Below are positions 25,927-31,771 of a stretch of 35,597 nucleotides of DNA, one piece after another. The notes under the pieces were generated by a model. The model was not told the origin of the DNA. It searched no databases and saw nothing but the letters and a program-made list of their open reading frames with translations. Origin of the DNA: a virus; the IMG/VR virus record IMGVR_UViG_3300024239_000268, positions 1 to 35,597 of that record; one strand, 5' to 3'. Position 1 is the first letter of the stretch; the number at the start of each line of letters is the position of its first letter. A program made the position numbers and the translations under genes.

Positions 25927-26068
25927 CTACCCTACAGGTTGCCATCTGAACTAAGTACCCTCCCGTCCCTCGTGTTCAGTGTGTTCGGCGATTTTCATCG
26001 CAACAACCAGGGAATGCCTAGCTTGCCGAGGCCGTAGATCTACCTCTGCCTCCACGCCCCCTTTCTTT
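25918..26068 (-). promoter_or_regulatory. Presumed late promoter region without a gene
   Basis: About 150 bases with no supported gene between the first late gene and the left palindrome. It holds a spaced inverted repeat CTGAAC (25946-25951) / GTTCAG (25974-25979), a direct repeat GTGTTC-AGT-GTGTTC (25972-25986) and a small dyad GCGAT/ATCGC (25988-26001). No clear -35/-10 pair is visible, as expected for an activator-dependent late promoter. Confidence 0.4.
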
Positions 26069-26094
26069 CAAATGGGCAGCGCGCTGCCCATTTG
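26069..26094. promoter_or_regulatory. Perfect 26-bp palindrome, copy 1 (core GGCAGCGCGCTGCC)
   Basis: A fully symmetric 26-bp sequence with core GGCAGCGCGCTGCC flanked by CAAATG/CATTTG. Copy 2 lies 64 bp away (centre to centre, about six helix turns) with the same core. It is either an operator for a dimeric regulator or a transcript hairpin ending the regulator operon. It is not followed by a T-run on the minus strand, which favours a binding site. Confidence 0.6.
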
Positions 26095-26131: not shown

Positions 26132-26159
26132 TCAAAGTGGCAGCGCGCTGCCACTTTGA
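26132..26159. promoter_or_regulatory. Perfect 28-bp palindrome, copy 2 (core GGCAGCGCGCTGCC)
   Basis: A fully symmetric 28-bp sequence with the same 14-bp core, flanked by TCAAAGT/ACTTTGA. Relative to copy 1 two arm bases differ (GT for TG) and both changes are mirrored in the other arm, so symmetry is kept. It lies 20 bases past the stop of the regulator gene ending at 26180. Confidence 0.6.
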
Positions 26160-26179: not shown

Positions 26180-26545
26180 CTAATCCCGGATAACAACCGG
26201 GAGTACGGCGCCGGGGGTGACAGGCTTCCCTTTGAGCAGGCTATCGACCAGCCCCTGTACATCCATAAACGTCTGAGTCGGATGGACATTATTGATGACG
26301 CCTCCATGAGTAGCCACCATTGCGTGCCCACTTGCATGGATTGAATCTCCGGCAATAGCGCCGAGGGATCGAGTGAGAATGATGGCGGCTTGCTGCGGAG
26401 GGAGTGTCTCGGAGGAAGCCTCCGTCACCATATCCAGACACTGGCAAAGAAGGGCTATGACGTCCTTTTCGCTTCGTCCGATCAACTTCCCGAACCGCTG
26501 AATGCTCTTTTGCTGCCTAGCAGTCAGTACGGTATTCGATTTCAC
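26180..26545 (-). CDS. Unknown regulator-region protein with ATHGG motif
   Basis: A 121-residue protein. Residues 1-45 are helical and basic (TARQQKSIQRFGKLIGRSEK), possibly DNA-binding. Residues 69-84 (IHASGHAMVATHGGVI) share a motif with the C-terminus of the RHH protein encoded just upstream: I-x-A-S-G-x4-A-T-H-G-G-x-I. The last 35 residues are helix then strand (GLVDSLLKGKPVTPGAVLPV). The family is not known to me. It overlaps the RHH gene by ATGA and ends right before the palindromes. A co-repressor, anti-repressor or toxin/antitoxin-like partner is possible. Confidence 0.6.
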   Translation of the reverse strand: MKSNTVLTARQQKSIQRFGKLIGRSEKDVIALLCQCLDMVTEASSETLPPQQAAIILTRSLGAIAGDSIHASGHAMVATHGGVINNVHPTQTFMDVQGLVDSLLKGKPVTPGAVLPVVIRD

Positions 26546-26799
26546 TTCTTACGCTTGGTCTGCTTCTTAACAGGCTCGGGGATTGTCGTAATCGTGCCAC
26601 CGTGGGTAGCAATGTTGGAGCTTCCCGATGCTTTGATCACTCTTGCCGGAGTGATCAGCATTGAGCCTCCGGTCGCCATATCCATCCGGATCAAGTGGTT
26701 CACGTAAGCCGAAAAATTCATCCCGAGAGCAGCTGCACGCTGGACAGCTAGCTCGTTGAGCTCAGGGGGCATACTCACTGCAGCAGGTTTTCTAGCCAT
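26542..26799 (-). CDS. Ribbon-helix-helix repressor-like protein with ATHGG tail
   Basis: An 85-residue protein. Residues 5-42 form a ribbon-helix-helix domain (AAVSMPPELNELAVQRAAA, then GMNFSAYVNHLIRMDM) as in Arc/CopG-type repressors. A C-terminal extension holds IKASGSSNIATHGGTI (55-70), shared with the next gene, and ends in a Lys-rich tail (KKQTKRKK). It reads leftward, away from the early operon, from an AT-rich spacer with two inverted repeats. It is the best candidate for the lysogeny repressor (the role of Mu c), but it could be a Ner-like early regulator. ATG 26799; the frame is open upstream but across the operator region. Confidence 0.75.
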   Translation of the reverse strand: MARKPAAVSMPPELNELAVQRAAALGMNFSAYVNHLIRMDMATGGSMLITPARVIKASGSSNIATHGGTITTIPEPVKKQTKRKK

Positions 26800-26803
26800 G
26801 AGC

Positions 26804-26820
26804 GTATAAAAACTTTTTAC
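26804..26820. promoter_or_regulatory. Operator-like inverted repeat O1
   Basis: GTATAAA-AAC-TTTTTAC, one mismatch from perfect symmetry, 4 bases upstream of the leftward RHH gene start. It matches the perfect repeat at 26847-26863 in arm sequence and 3-base spacer. The centres are 43 bp apart, about four helical turns. RHH repressors typically bind such paired AT-rich dyads. Confidence 0.6.
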
Positions 26821-26846: not shown

Positions 26847-26863
26847 GTATAAAATCTTTATAC
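26847..26863. promoter_or_regulatory. Operator-like inverted repeat O2, early promoter region
   Basis: GTATAAA-ATC-TTTATAC, a perfect 7-bp-arm inverted repeat ending 12 bases before the rightward RHH start. A TTGACT at 26841 just precedes it, but its spacing to TATACT is only 12 bases, so the promoter is not securely placed. The whole 26800-26875 spacer is AT-rich against the GC-rich genome. Confidence 0.65.
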
Positions 26864-26875
26864 TTTGTTCGACAC

Positions 26876-27058
26876 GTGAAATACAGGAAGCCAAAGAAGA
26901 CCATCCCAGCGGCTGTCAGGATCGAGTCTGATCTGTACGCCCATGCGATGAGGAAAGCAGAGGAAGATGACAGCAACTTCTCTCGATATGTGAGGCGTCT
27001 AATCAAGGCGGACCTGGAAAAGTCCGGGCTCTCAACACCGAAGCTCATGGTCCAATGA
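26876..27058 (+). CDS. Ribbon-helix-helix regulator, first early gene (Ner/Cro-like position)
   Basis: A 60-residue basic protein starting at GTG 26876. The RHH pattern is clear: strand TIPAAVRIESD, helix LYAHAMRKAEEDD, turn SNFSRY, helix VRRLIKADLEKSG. Arc/MetJ-type proteins of this size dimerise and bind operators through the strand. It is divergent from the leftward RHH gene and shares its control region. It occupies the place of Mu ner or a lambda cro, which shuts off the opposing promoter. Its start codon is GTG without a clear Shine-Dalgarno. An ATGA overlap couples it to the next gene. Confidence 0.75.
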   Translation: MKYRKPKKTIPAAVRIESDLYAHAMRKAEEDDSNFSRYVRRLIKADLEKSGLSTPKLMVQ

Positions 27059-27438
27059 ACCACTGCCACACAAAGCAGGAAATGGAATTGTGGCAGTTAC
27101 GCCTGGACTCGCGCTTCCCGCGTGTGCCGATGCTACGCCCCGATCAGGTGGCCGAGGGCCTCGGCTGTACCCCGAAGACCGTGCACAACCTGTTCGCTCC
27201 AGATGGACGCGCAGGGAAGCCCTGGGTCATGGGCATCGAATTCAACGGCCGCGGCGCTGGCAGCAAGACCGCCCGCCGCATCCCGCGCGAGAATGCCATC
27301 CTGTTCTGGGCTGCATCAGCCAATTACCGCCCCGACGACTTCCTTGCCATGCTAATGGACGTCGTCGACGGCCTCCATGCAAAGGAGCGCCTGCTCATAC
27401 AGCAACGTATCAACGAGCTCAATCGCCGCAGCATCTGA
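27055..27438 (+). CDS. Helix-turn-helix protein of the early operon
   Basis: A 127-residue protein. Residues about 26-48 (MLRPDQVAEGLGCTPKTVHN) form a helix-turn-helix of the MerR/excisionase type. A basic loop (GRGAGSKTARRIPRENAILF) follows, then a helical C-terminus (LLIQQRINELNRRS). The protein probably binds DNA and may control early genes or act as an excisionase-like cofactor. It overlaps the RHH gene by ATGA. No metal-binding or catalytic motif is seen. Confidence 0.6.
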   Translation: MNHCHTKQEMELWQLRLDSRFPRVPMLRPDQVAEGLGCTPKTVHNLFAPDGRAGKPWVMGIEFNGRGAGSKTARRIPRENAILFWAASANYRPDDFLAMLMDVVDGLHAKERLLIQQRINELNRRSI

Positions 27439-27801: not shown

Positions 27802-28586
27802 CCACACATAACTCAGACATGGAGTTGGTCCGCGCCGGTGAGCTCAGTGCGAAGACCAAGAAACGCCTTAAGGACGTGTGCCAGGCAGTCACGGATGACC
27901 GCATTGCGGCCGCCTATGCGAAGACTGAATCCTCGCGTGTCGACTACATGACCAACGCCCTGCTGATGGGGATGCTCCTTCTCGGTAGGAAACAGGCTCT
28001 CAAACATGGACATTTTATGGCGTTTTCCGCCGCTGTCTGGGCCAAGCTGAACCCTGGAAAGGCACAACCGGAAGAGCACGCCGTAAAAAATTTCTGCCGC
28101 TCACTCCGCGACTACACATTTCTCGCTCAGCGCTTCATCTCTGACATTGAGCAGGACACTTTCGCTCCTGAGTACCGCGACCAGGTCGTGACCCCGCCAG
28201 CCGTCTCCACCGAGGACATCGTGACACTGGTGCGGACTGGTGAAGAAACCAATGCGATGATCGAGGCCATCAGGACCTTTGTCGCGGGAAGATCGAAGCG
28301 GCGAATGTTGATCGATTTTCGCAATGCCGAAACGGCGAGTGATGACGAGGCGGCCGCAGAGTCCGCCGAGGCGGAGAAGCGTAGGAGCAAGAAGCTGCCC
28401 GAACAGACTCCAGGCCAGATGGACTTCCTAAATGACATCCTAAACCCCATCCAGACCGTGGACACACTCATGGATGATATTGGCTTTGTGCGCCGGACGA
28501 ATCGCGAGTTCTGGACGAACCTGGCCAACAAGCTCGAATCGCAGGCCACGAAGGCCCGCGCCCTGGCAAAGGAGATCGCAAAATGA
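27798..28586 (+). CDS. Early protein of unknown role, DUF3102-like N-terminus
   Basis: A 262-residue, mostly helical, charged protein. The N-terminal half has ALLMGMLLLGRKQALKHGHF, which recalls the DUF3102 pattern (large helix, then K-x3-x-HG-x-F) found in phage and plasmid DNA-handling proteins. The C-terminal half is acidic then basic, with a coiled-coil end (FWTNLANKLESQATKARALA). It lies just before the transposase gene, with ATGA overlaps on both sides, so it is made in step with the transposase. A transposition accessory or replication-control role is likely. No catalytic motif is seen. Confidence 0.5.
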   Translation: MTTHNSDMELVRAGELSAKTKKRLKDVCQAVTDDRIAAAYAKTESSRVDYMTNALLMGMLLLGRKQALKHGHFMAFSAAVWAKLNPGKAQPEEHAVKNFCRSLRDYTFLAQRFISDIEQDTFAPEYRDQVVTPPAVSTEDIVTLVRTGEETNAMIEAIRTFVAGRSKRRMLIDFRNAETASDDEAAAESAEAEKRRSKKLPEQTPGQMDFLNDILNPIQTVDTLMDDIGFVRRTNREFWTNLANKLESQATKARALAKEIAK

Positions 28587-30739
28587 GCATCTATGAGCTC
28601 ACGACCATGGGCCCGCTCGCGCTGGCGACGCGCTCCTGCTCTGCGCTCAAACTCGCAGACGGGAGCCCCATGATTCTGGAGGTCCCGGCCTGCGACGCGG
28701 CGGAGTTCCTGCAAATTAACTCCGAAGATCGCGTCCGCGTGTCTGCACTGTGGCAGGCCTTCGCGCTGATCGGCCGCGCACGCACCGTGAAGACCGGCGC
28801 CATGGCGGCGGCAATGATGCACCGCCATGACGGCCGCGGCTGGTCCGCCAAAACCCTCATGGACCTGTTCCGTGCGTACCAAAACGGCGGATACAAGCCT
28901 GGCGATTTTCGCAAGCGTGGCGCCAAGTACTCGCCTGGGGATTGGCGTATCCTAGTCCGGGACTACGCGGGCAAGAACAAGACGCTTCCACCAGAGTTCA
29001 CGTCCTGGCTCACCGAACAGTGGGCACAGTTCCGCGGCCGCTCAGACTGCGTGCGTGCGCTGTGGCGGCACGTGGTTCAGGAGGTTTGGCTGAAGGGGAA
29101 TCCGGTCCCAGGCTACGGCACTGTGGACGACTGGAGCCGCACCACCGGTCGCGCCAGGCCGCATCCTTTGATGGCTCGTCCAGGCGAACTCCCCGACGGA
29201 TGGAGTGAGTCGACCTTCCGCCGCGCTCTCCCGAAGCGTAAGGCCACGCGCGCCCAGGTGGCCGGAGGATATCTGCCAGCCCACACGCACCAACCCGACC
29301 AGGTGCTCACGGATCGCAGCCAGCTCATGCCGCTGCAGTACGTGATCATCGACGACCACCGTGTCGATCGCAAGTGCCTGCACTTCTGCAATGGCCGAGG
29401 CGAGTTCGTGTATCCGCTGATCGTCGGCGCCGTGGATGCCTGCAGCGCCGTCGACACCGCTATCGTCGGAAAGCCGCGTGCGCTCAAACGCTCCGAGCAG
29501 GAAAACGCCGACGAGAAGTCGGTGCGAGAGGGTATCACCCAGGACATGACTCTCTTGGTTGTCGTCAACACGCTGCGGGAGCTGGGTCTGCCCAAGGGCT
29601 ACCCGATCACGTTCGTGCACGAAAAGGCAGCAGCCTGCTTCCCCGCGTGGGCTAAGCGATTCCTGCGCGAGGCCTACGGGGATCGGATTCAGTTCATGGC
29701 GACGGAGGCCTTTGAGGCCAGGATGATGCAGCACGGCTTTCGAGAGACCGGCGGTCAGCCCTACTCGAAGGCGCTGGTGGAAGTGCTCTGGCGCATCCTG
29801 GAGACCCAGCTGGCCAGGCAGCCCTTGGCTACGGGCCCCCGCTATGATGACACGCCTTCAGAGGTCAAAGAGGCCGAGAGCTACACCCTCAAGCTCCTAG
29901 ACAAGGTCGGTGGACTGGAGCAGGCCTTGGCCAAACTCTCCCTTCCCGCGCTCACCTTCGAGCAGGCCTATGATGGGGTCGTAAGCGCCCTGCGACTGCT
30001 CCGCTATCGCACGAACCACAAGCTGCAGGGCTTCGATCGCGTCCGCGAATGGCGCATGAGCCCGGCCGACAATTACAGGCCGATCGAGGAGCTCGGCACG
30101 CTCTCCCCTGAGGAGCAACTCCAGGTGCAGGACATCATCGAGCGTCTCGAATGCCCGGCGGAGCGCTTCGTGCGTCTCGCGCGCAATGTCGAGTTCGAGG
30201 CGGTCGATGAGAACCTGCTCACGTACATCTCGGGCACGCCCCGAAAAGTCAGCGTGCGAGACGGCAAGATCTCCCTTCGCTCGCAAGAGTTCGGCAACGA
30301 CACTCTCGTTTTCCGTGAGTCGAACAACCCGCTCCTCGATGAGGAGGCCGAAGGCTGCACCTACGACGCGGTGCTCTCGCCTGAGGGAGACCGGATCGTC
30401 CTGAGCAAGGACGACCGCATCCTTGGCTGTGTTTTCCGCCAGGAGCGCGTCAACCGCGCCGATCCACGCGCCCTGCGTCAGGAGCAGCTGCGCGTCAGGC
30501 AGGCGCGCATCGCCGATCGCGAGGCCTTCGCTCAGTATGCCCTAGGAGACACCAACACGGCCATGGAGCGCATGCGTCTCCAGAACGCGGCCGTCGTTGC
30601 GGAGGCCAGGGCCCTGCAGGGCGGCATGGCTGCGGCCGCGATCGAATCACCCAGGCGCGCGAACTCGAAGAAGGAGCCCAACGCCACCGACCTTCTCCTG
30701 GCTCGTGCAGCCAGGAACCACACAGAAGACGAAGGCTGA
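28583..30739 (+). CDS. Mu A-like transposase
   Basis: A 718-residue transposase that joins phage ends to target DNA. N-terminal helical DNA-binding regions (residues 1-240) include TLMDLFRAYQNGGYKPGDF and basic STFRRALPKRKATRAQV. The RNase H-like core starts at QYVIIDDHRVDRK with Asp258. The second acidic position appears as Glu347 (ITFVHEKAAACF) instead of Asp, and the last Glu is Glu400 (SKALVEVLWRILE). Spacing between the second and third residues (53) is close to that in Mu A (56). A beta-barrel and C-terminal Arg/Glu-rich helical tail follow, the part that contacts the MuB-like ATPase. It overlaps the preceding gene by ATGA and is followed 57 bases later by the ATPase gene. Confidence 0.9.
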   Translation: MSIYELTTMGPLALATRSCSALKLADGSPMILEVPACDAAEFLQINSEDRVRVSALWQAFALIGRARTVKTGAMAAAMMHRHDGRGWSAKTLMDLFRAYQNGGYKPGDFRKRGAKYSPGDWRILVRDYAGKNKTLPPEFTSWLTEQWAQFRGRSDCVRALWRHVVQEVWLKGNPVPGYGTVDDWSRTTGRARPHPLMARPGELPDGWSESTFRRALPKRKATRAQVAGGYLPAHTHQPDQVLTDRSQLMPLQYVIIDDHRVDRKCLHFCNGRGEFVYPLIVGAVDACSAVDTAIVGKPRALKRSEQENADEKSVREGITQDMTLLVVVNTLRELGLPKGYPITFVHEKAAACFPAWAKRFLREAYGDRIQFMATEAFEARMMQHGFRETGGQPYSKALVEVLWRILETQLARQPLATGPRYDDTPSEVKEAESYTLKLLDKVGGLEQALAKLSLPALTFEQAYDGVVSALRLLRYRTNHKLQGFDRVREWRMSPADNYRPIEELGTLSPEEQLQVQDIIERLECPAERFVRLARNVEFEAVDENLLTYISGTPRKVSVRDGKISLRSQEFGNDTLVFRESNNPLLDEEAEGCTYDAVLSPEGDRIVLSKDDRILGCVFRQERVNRADPRALRQEQLRVRQARIADREAFAQYALGDTNTAMERMRLQNAAVVAEARALQGGMAAAAIESPRRANSKKEPNATDLLLARAARNHTEDEG

Positions 30740-30796
30740 ACCCGCGCCAACGGATCCAGCCCTCTAAACACGCAACACCCACTGAAAAGTACCGCT

Positions 30797-31771
30797 ATGT
30801 CTGAGAAAATTGACACGAAAAACCATCCGGCCGTCAAGGCCTTGATCGCCCATCAGGAGCGACTTGGGGACAGCGATGCCGCATTCGCCAGGCGCTACCT
30901 GCGCGTCTCCTCGGCGTCATGGTCGCTGCTGCGAAGCGGCACCTACGGCGCGAAGGATCCCAGCTCGATGCTCGATCGCTGCGAGTCTGCGGTGCAGCTG
31001 CTCAACGACCAGGCCGAGAAAGCCGGTTCCGACGCCGGCCGCGGCAAGATCATCGACCTGCCCCACGTGCGCGCGGCGGTCTCGGCCGTGCGCGGCTGCC
31101 TCAACGAGGACCAGAACCGCCTGGTCGTGTACCTCGCCCCCAGCGGCGGCGGGAAGTCCGCCCTGACGCGCAAGCTGCGCGAGGTGTACCTCGCCGCAGC
31201 TGTCGTGGTCGAGGCCACGGAGAGCTGGCGCAAATCGTATTTCAACTCCCTAGCCGCGGTCGCCGAGGCCCTCGGCCTGGAGAAGGCGGGGCACCCGCGC
31301 GCGCTGGAGACCATCATCGTCGACTACCTGTCCAACACGTCCCGCATCCTGTGCATCGACGAGGGCCACTACTGCGGACCGGAGAGCCTGAACATGCTCA
31401 AGATGCTCCTCAACAAGACGGGCACGCGCGTCGTGCTCTGCGCGATCCCCCAGCTGTGGCGGCGCATGGAGGAGGCCGCCTATGAGGAGGTGCTGCAGCT
31501 GCGCCGCCGCACTGCCGCGAAAATCATCGTCAACGAGGTGTCGCGCTCGGATGCGCGGGCGTTCCTCCATGCACGGGTACCGGACTTCACCTCCATCGGT
31601 GACGCCGAGAAAGAGGCGGTCGCCCTGGTCTGCACCGCGGCCAACCGCTTCGGCCTCTACGACACCCTCAAACGCATCTGCATTGAGATGCACGAGGAGG
31701 CCGACGGCCACTCCATCAGCCTGGACGTCGTCAAAGCAGCAATCAGCCGCGTGGAGGCGCTCAGGTCATGA
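30797..31771 (+). CDS. Mu B-like AAA+ ATPase (target selection)
   Basis: A 324-residue ATPase. Walker A APSGGGKS lies at residues 114-121 and Walker B ILCIDEG at 184-190; sensor-like residues follow in TRVVLCAIPQLW. The N-terminal ~60 residues form a helix-turn-helix (GDSDAAFARRYLRVSSAS), as in Mu B, which binds target DNA. Mu B-type proteins coat target DNA, bring it to the transposase, and give target immunity. Directly downstream of the transposase gene, as in all Mu-like phages. Its stop overlaps the next start by ATGA. Confidence 0.9.
   Translation: MSEKIDTKNHPAVKALIAHQERLGDSDAAFARRYLRVSSASWSLLRSGTYGAKDPSSMLDRCESAVQLLNDQAEKAGSDAGRGKIIDLPHVRAAVSAVRGCLNEDQNRLVVYLAPSGGGKSALTRKLREVYLAAAVVVEATESWRKSYFNSLAAVAEALGLEKAGHPRALETIIVDYLSNTSRILCIDEGHYCGPESLNMLKMLLNKTGTRVVLCAIPQLWRRMEEAAYEEVLQLRRRTAAKIIVNEVSRSDARAFLHARVPDFTSIGDAEKEAVALVCTAANRFGLYDTLKRICIEMHEEADGHSISLDVVKAAISRVEALRS

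Follow-up and report, generated by a model that had tools for sequence, protein, structure and literature searches.

In the lysogenic operon cI-rexA-rexB of phage lambda, the repressor is co-expressed with a membrane exclusion protein, and in phage P22 the small ribbon-helix-helix (RHH) repressors Arc and Mnt are found at the regulatory switch. In amyloid signalling, an NLR and an effector encoded by neighbouring genes share a motif of approximately 20 residues; ten bacterial families of such motifs have been described, including some with membrane-targeting Bell partners, and local alignment of neighbouring proteins is what first revealed some of the motif pairs (PMC7889193, PMC8086366, PMC12261475). 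Here we analyse a phage locus where two adjacent genes, the first of them at the position of the immunity repressor, encode proteins that share a short tag, and we compare it with the equivalent locus of related phages.

A B3-like transposable phage and its switch region

The window (the whole stretch of DNA analysed, 35,597 nucleotides, IMG/VR record IMGVR_UViG_3300024239_000268) belongs to a B3-like transposable siphophage, with terminase, portal, and transposase A and B genes and with divergent early and late modules. Its large terminase is 59–61% identical to those of StopSmel, Aussie, B3, Mwe-Yong1, and Lsp-JY19, its PHROG matches include a transposase and a DNA transposition protein, and it also encodes a Gam-like protein. 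A verrucomicrobial host is likely, since the closest prophage terminase (82% identical) is found in an Opitutae genome. Unlike the terminase, transposases A and B (28583–31771) matched nothing by tblastn among the collected phages; the early half of the window has thus diverged far more than the late one. As in B3, the early genes diverge from the repressor-plus-late genes. P0001 lies at the repressor position, occupied by helix-turn-helix (HTH) repressors in five syntenic relatives. The switch region contains the following features:

26542–26799, minus strand: P0001, 85-aa probable RHH protein at the immunity-repressor position, with a C-terminal tag (open reading frame, translation, and paralogy with P0003)
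26180–26545, minus strand: P0002, 121-aa partner protein without transmembrane segment (open reading frame; its start overlaps the P0001 stop, GTGA)
26804–26820, unstranded: operator-like dyad GTATAAAAACTTTTTAC, 17 bp (none expected by chance in a sequence of this length)
26847–26863, unstranded: operator-like dyad GTATAAAATCTTTATAC, 17 bp with perfect 7-bp arms (likewise none expected by chance)
26876–27058, plus strand: P0003, 60-aa divergent RHH protein at a Ner/Cro-like position, untagged paralogue of P0001 (sequence comparison)
27055–27438, plus strand: early HTH-type protein, with homologues that mark the equivalent switch position of related phages (tblastn: L176, 50%; L050; L055)

The GTGA overlap suggests that translation of P0001 and P0002 is coupled. 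No Pfam family matched P0001 above the cut-off; a single-sequence model places helices at residues 12–25 and 29–42, with the spacing of RHH proteins, and its fold matches (Arc, CdbA, and an antitoxin) are weak. P0003 is a clear paralogue of the N-terminal domain of P0001 (z 9.4; none of 3,000 shuffles reached the score) and stops where the tag region of P0001 starts. The two 17-bp dyads between P0001 and P0003 match each other, are found nowhere else in the window, and are good operator candidates. Downstream of P0002, two perfect palindromes of 26–28 bp (26068–26094 and 26132–26159) share a core, GGCAGCGCGCTGCC, present nowhere else in the window, and may be terminators or binding sites. A verrucomicrobial prophage (L176, 5621–6198) has a divergent RHH/RHH pair at its switch like that of the window, without tag.

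A short tag shared by P0001 and P0002

Residues 55–70 of P0001 (IKASGSSNIATHGGTI) and 69–84 of P0002 (IHASGHAMVATHGGVI) share the pattern I-x-ASG-x4-ATHGG-x-I, with 10 of 16 residues identical, exactly as the preliminary description of this locus had reported. Local alignment extends the match to approximately 19 residues, a refinement of the 16-residue motif:

26581–26637, minus strand: tag in P0001, residues 55–73, IKASGSSNIATHGGTITTI (local alignment and shuffles)
26285–26341, minus strand: tag in P0002, residues 69–87, IHASGHAMVATHGGVINNV (local alignment and shuffles)

The Smith-Waterman score of the two proteins (54) was reached by 4 of 20,000 shuffled pairs (Gumbel p ~2.6e-4), 300 shuffles gave at most 7 tag identities against the 10 observed, and pairwise BLASTP returned E = 7e-5. 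Corrected for the roughly 50 neighbouring gene pairs of a genome, the match stands at ~0.01, and the pair taken alone is suggestive; the case for tag pairing is carried by the comparative data presented below. At the DNA level, 31 of the 57 positions coding for the tags are identical and only 4 of the 10 shared residues use the same codon (a serine, for example, is TCG in one and AGT in the other); the two tags are therefore not a recent DNA duplication. Neither the window nor five related phage genomes contain the motif in any other protein. Their N-terminal halves do differ, as previously noted: that of P0002 is not significantly similar to the RHH domain, and homology between the two finds no support. 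Its low-confidence model has two helices with RHH-like spacing. The tag regions have very low confidence in these single-sequence models, too weak for judging the tag.

Searches with P0001 and P0002 as single proteins retrieved no relatives from the IMG/VR viral contigs or phage records searched, and P0002 matched no family above cut-off in Pfam, PHROGs, NCBIfam, or PADLOC. A scan of viral contigs with the motif as a DNA pattern gave 42 stretches, almost all non-coding or unrelated, which is the level expected by chance. In 387 genomes from the phylum of the Opitutae prophage, searches with P0002 and with the motif pattern also remained at chance level, with four pattern matches, about as many as the reversed control. 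The one related instance comes from an Alishewanella prophage (L173), where SIHTGNGSFVNYATHGSTIIN, with a single ATHG copy, is found in the gene directly 3' of an untagged repressor. Of all related partners other than the cognate one, this protein matches the P0001 tag best (5 of 400 shuffles family-wise); an HMM built from the two window tags alone did not recover it. The proposal that ATHGG marks a new motif family thus finds no support beyond the window phage and this distant phage. An unrelated phage protein (L038, 3631–4035; DASGTQHVATHGGTPTQAKEAAKAGNN...ALGWP), with a weak match to phrog_38816, has ASG-x4-ATHGG in common with the window, a match that looks convergent.

Matched tags at the immunity locus of related phages

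When all adjacent gene pairs of related phages were scored, further pairs of short tags emerged at the immunity locus. In approximately 20 related phages, the repressor has a Gly-rich tag at its C-terminus and the product of the following gene carries a tag that matches it, in spellings other than that of the window. The repressor of Pseudomonas phage B3 (ORF18) ends with GGISVTGDGNRTAGRDFHERKE (also given as ISVTGDGNRTAGRDFHERKE) and ORF20, the next large protein, begins with MNIEVTGSNNIVAGRDFIE. Two other loci pair QNFHSQVDQVAGRDVVNQ with QEFHGPVDQVAGRDIVNQ (L113) and MLNTGANAVQVGHAGGDVTV with MHNSGRNTVQVGSAGGNVTV (L263). In a Pseudomonas carbonaria prophage (L205, 3750–5415), the repressor carries two tags and each of the next two proteins carries one; one of these tagged partners has a Cys-rich segment and two transmembrane segments. 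The repressors of L196 (3246–3746) and L253 (2385–3185) also carry two tags, either different or repeated, among them VQIGG and VQVG stretches. PHROG 5825, of unknown function, covers the tagged partners of L224 (3525–4157) and L229 (3380–3754), with the tag apparently falling in its first 23 positions; a search with this PHROG in 321 genomes gave one match and was uninformative.

By eye, the tags fall into the classes I.V.G..NR.AGRD[FY], Q.F.G.V.QVAGRDI.N, and N.G....VQVG.AGG.V, with the ATHGG tag of the window as a fourth; class boundaries, like the gene calls on contigs, were set by simple rules. HMMs of the AGRD, VAGRD, and VQVG classes ranked neither P0001 nor P0002 above decoys (303 and 807 of 2,000 decoys). 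Because these models do not recognise ATHGG, the place of the window tag in the set rests on its position, its architecture, and its matching between neighbours. A resemblance between the P0001 tag and the repressor tag of L253 was rejected as not significant (30 of 400 family-wise). We also rejected a shared basic C-terminal tail as a feature of the family, tagged and untagged repressors being not clearly different in this respect. Scanning DNA for a pattern of two AGRD tags separated by 50–80 bases, without recourse to the terminase, added three two-gene tag pairs, of which two belong to phages whose terminases are only 27–36% identical.

We quantified the specificity of this matching on repressors chosen only by the similarity of their tag-free N-terminal (HTH) parts, with tagged and untagged repressors as seeds, the next gene being the longest open reading frame that begins close to the stop codon of the repressor. 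For the 52 distinct loci and the window together, the tag score between repressor C-terminus and next protein averaged 33.8 for cognate pairs versus 22.9 for non-cognate ones; none of 100,000 permutations reached the cognate mean (best 27.8). For the window, the cognate partner ranked first of 53, which places P0001 and P0002 among the matched-tag operons. The distribution of scores is bimodal, with approximately 20 loci having matched tags and the rest none. All pairs in which both sides could be called by class regular expressions, written after seeing the pairs, were class-matched, and tags on the two sides co-occurred strongly (Fisher p ~9e-10). Across 19 tagged pairs, identity between the two tags is 58% for protein and 61% for DNA, and only 41% of the shared residues keep the same codon. 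The match is thus kept at the protein level, and selection on the protein rather than recent copying is likely. Transmembrane segments were predicted, by a Kyte-Doolittle scan, in 16 of 20 tagged partners versus 11 of 32 untagged next genes (p 0.0018). They are a usual, not universal, feature of the partners: P0002, whose tag is internal (residue 69), lacks them, like 4 of the 20 other tagged partners.

Among the beetreviruses, B3 and Ps59 have both the repressor tag and the tagged partner, and both are absent in Fc02, H71, Fc22, H72, Ps56, and Ps60, where the next gene differs. RNA-seq of an Fc02 lysogen found a single transcript spanning the repressor and the next gene (PMC9936078), which supports the operon but not the tag because the Fc02 partner is untagged. 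More than half of the related repressors are untagged, so that the tag is not essential for lysogeny.

Possible role of the tags

The preliminary description had suggested that the motif could be an interaction element pairing the two proteins. This suggestion is supported by an independent comparison, the recurrence of neighbour-specific matched tags in approximately 20 related phages, and the earlier interpretation as a whole is partly supported. We propose, with a probability of roughly 55%, that P0001 is the immunity repressor, P0002 its co-translated partner, and the shared tags a homotypic docking element, because self-matching motifs produce neighbour-specific matching over many spellings. 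P0001 would serve this B3-like transposable phage as its lysogeny (immunity) repressor, with P0002 translated alongside. The C-terminal tag of P0001 and the internal tag of P0002 would pair, like strand with like strand, into a mixed beta-type complex. P0002 would thereby be held on operator-bound P0001, either modulating the repressor or being controlled by it. Since P0001 would dock P0002 and the tagless P0003 would not, the two opposing RHH proteins would get different partners. Other phages of the group probably use the same design in other spellings, usually linking the repressor with a small membrane protein that is made in the lysogen and plausibly acts in exclusion or in the control of induction; candidate outcomes are the tethering of a membrane exclusion protein, sensing, and the control of repressor release.

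Several other explanations deserve consideration. The tag could be the leftover of an old duplication or domain shuffling that brought the repressor tail to the next gene, and have no pairing function today. Both copies do lie in adjacent genes and local copying could spread such tails, but the residues stay matched while only ~41% keep their codon, and in the beetreviruses the tag never occurs without the tagged partner or the reverse, which makes this explanation rather unlikely. Simple coincidence between two low-complexity stretches rich in Gly and Ala is very unlikely: the pair differs from shuffled sequences (p 2.6e-4) and the matched-tag architecture recurs at the same position in related phages, despite the literal pattern occurring elsewhere only at chance level. 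The possibility, raised beforehand, that the motif would be found only here by chance thus holds for the literal ATHGG string and fails for the architecture.

An RHH protein followed by an overlapping downstream gene is also the layout of a toxin-antitoxin pair, with P0001 as the antitoxin and P0002 as the toxin, and there is a weak sub-threshold match to CcdA (E 0.19). This is improbable, given that searches of Pfam, PHROGs, NCBIfam, and PADLOC linked P0002 to no toxin family, that the locus, with its divergent paralogous RHH gene, is the immunity switch of the phage, and that a common tag would be unusual between toxins and antitoxins. The preliminary description had also considered a metal or ligand site around the conserved His, which is indeed kept in P0001, P0002, and the Alishewanella relative. 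In the alignment, the matched tags of other phages mostly have no fixed His or Cys, and such a site now seems highly improbable.

The recurrence of matched tags, differently spelled, in approximately 20 related phages suggests a general peptide "handshake" between repressor and neighbour. It seems to be previously undescribed; in the literature searched, of which coverage was partial, we found no matched repressor and partner tags in phages. More speculatively, and by analogy, many phage-specific self-pairing tags, possibly of amyloid type, might wire the repressor of transposable phages to a co-expressed and usually membrane-bound partner. Templated assembly might then couple the state of the repressor to the effector, and the diversity of tags might insulate coresident prophages from one another; we regard this extension as doubtful. 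If the tags pair, immunity repressors would gain a direct protein link to their partners, including that of the long-studied phage B3, exclusion and induction would become testable through these partner proteins, and the paired self-matching motifs of immune receptors would be extended to the control of phage lysogeny. The approximately 20 natural tag pairs provide a set for testing the specificity of binding.

Comparison with known systems

Like Arc and Mnt of P22, P0001 is a small and probably RHH-type protein at a phage switch, with weak fold matches to Arc, although the window phage is of a different type and we know of no tag match between the P22 repressors and a neighbouring protein. 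As in the lambda cI-rexA-rexB operon, the repressor is probably co-expressed with a partner; to our knowledge, no common tag exists there. Phage B3 is closer, belonging to the same phage group and having the same gene order, with a repressor (ORF18) whose C-terminal tag is matched in ORF20. It differs from the window in that its repressor is an HTH protein (XRE type), its tag reads VTG..N..AGRDF, and its partner has two transmembrane segments.

Pfam families of amyloid motifs (RHIM, PP, HET-s, and sigma) gave nothing above cut-off in ten repressors and partners of related phages, nor in P0001 and P0002, which were scanned too. By analogy, the nearest known kind is nonetheless the paired amyloid signalling motif. 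As in fungal NWD2/HET-S, bacterial BASS motifs with NLR/Bell pairs, and RHIM, a motif of approximately 20 residues is present in two proteins encoded by adjacent or overlapping genes. As in amyloid pairs, the spellings are many and matched within each pair, and the partner is often membrane-associated. The phage tags, known from sequence alone, differ in that the receptor side is a DNA-binding repressor and not an NLR. Those of the VQVG class even contain the VQVG/VQIG core of RHIM, whereas the tag of the window lacks the RHIM core and shares with these systems the layout of a short motif matched between neighbours.
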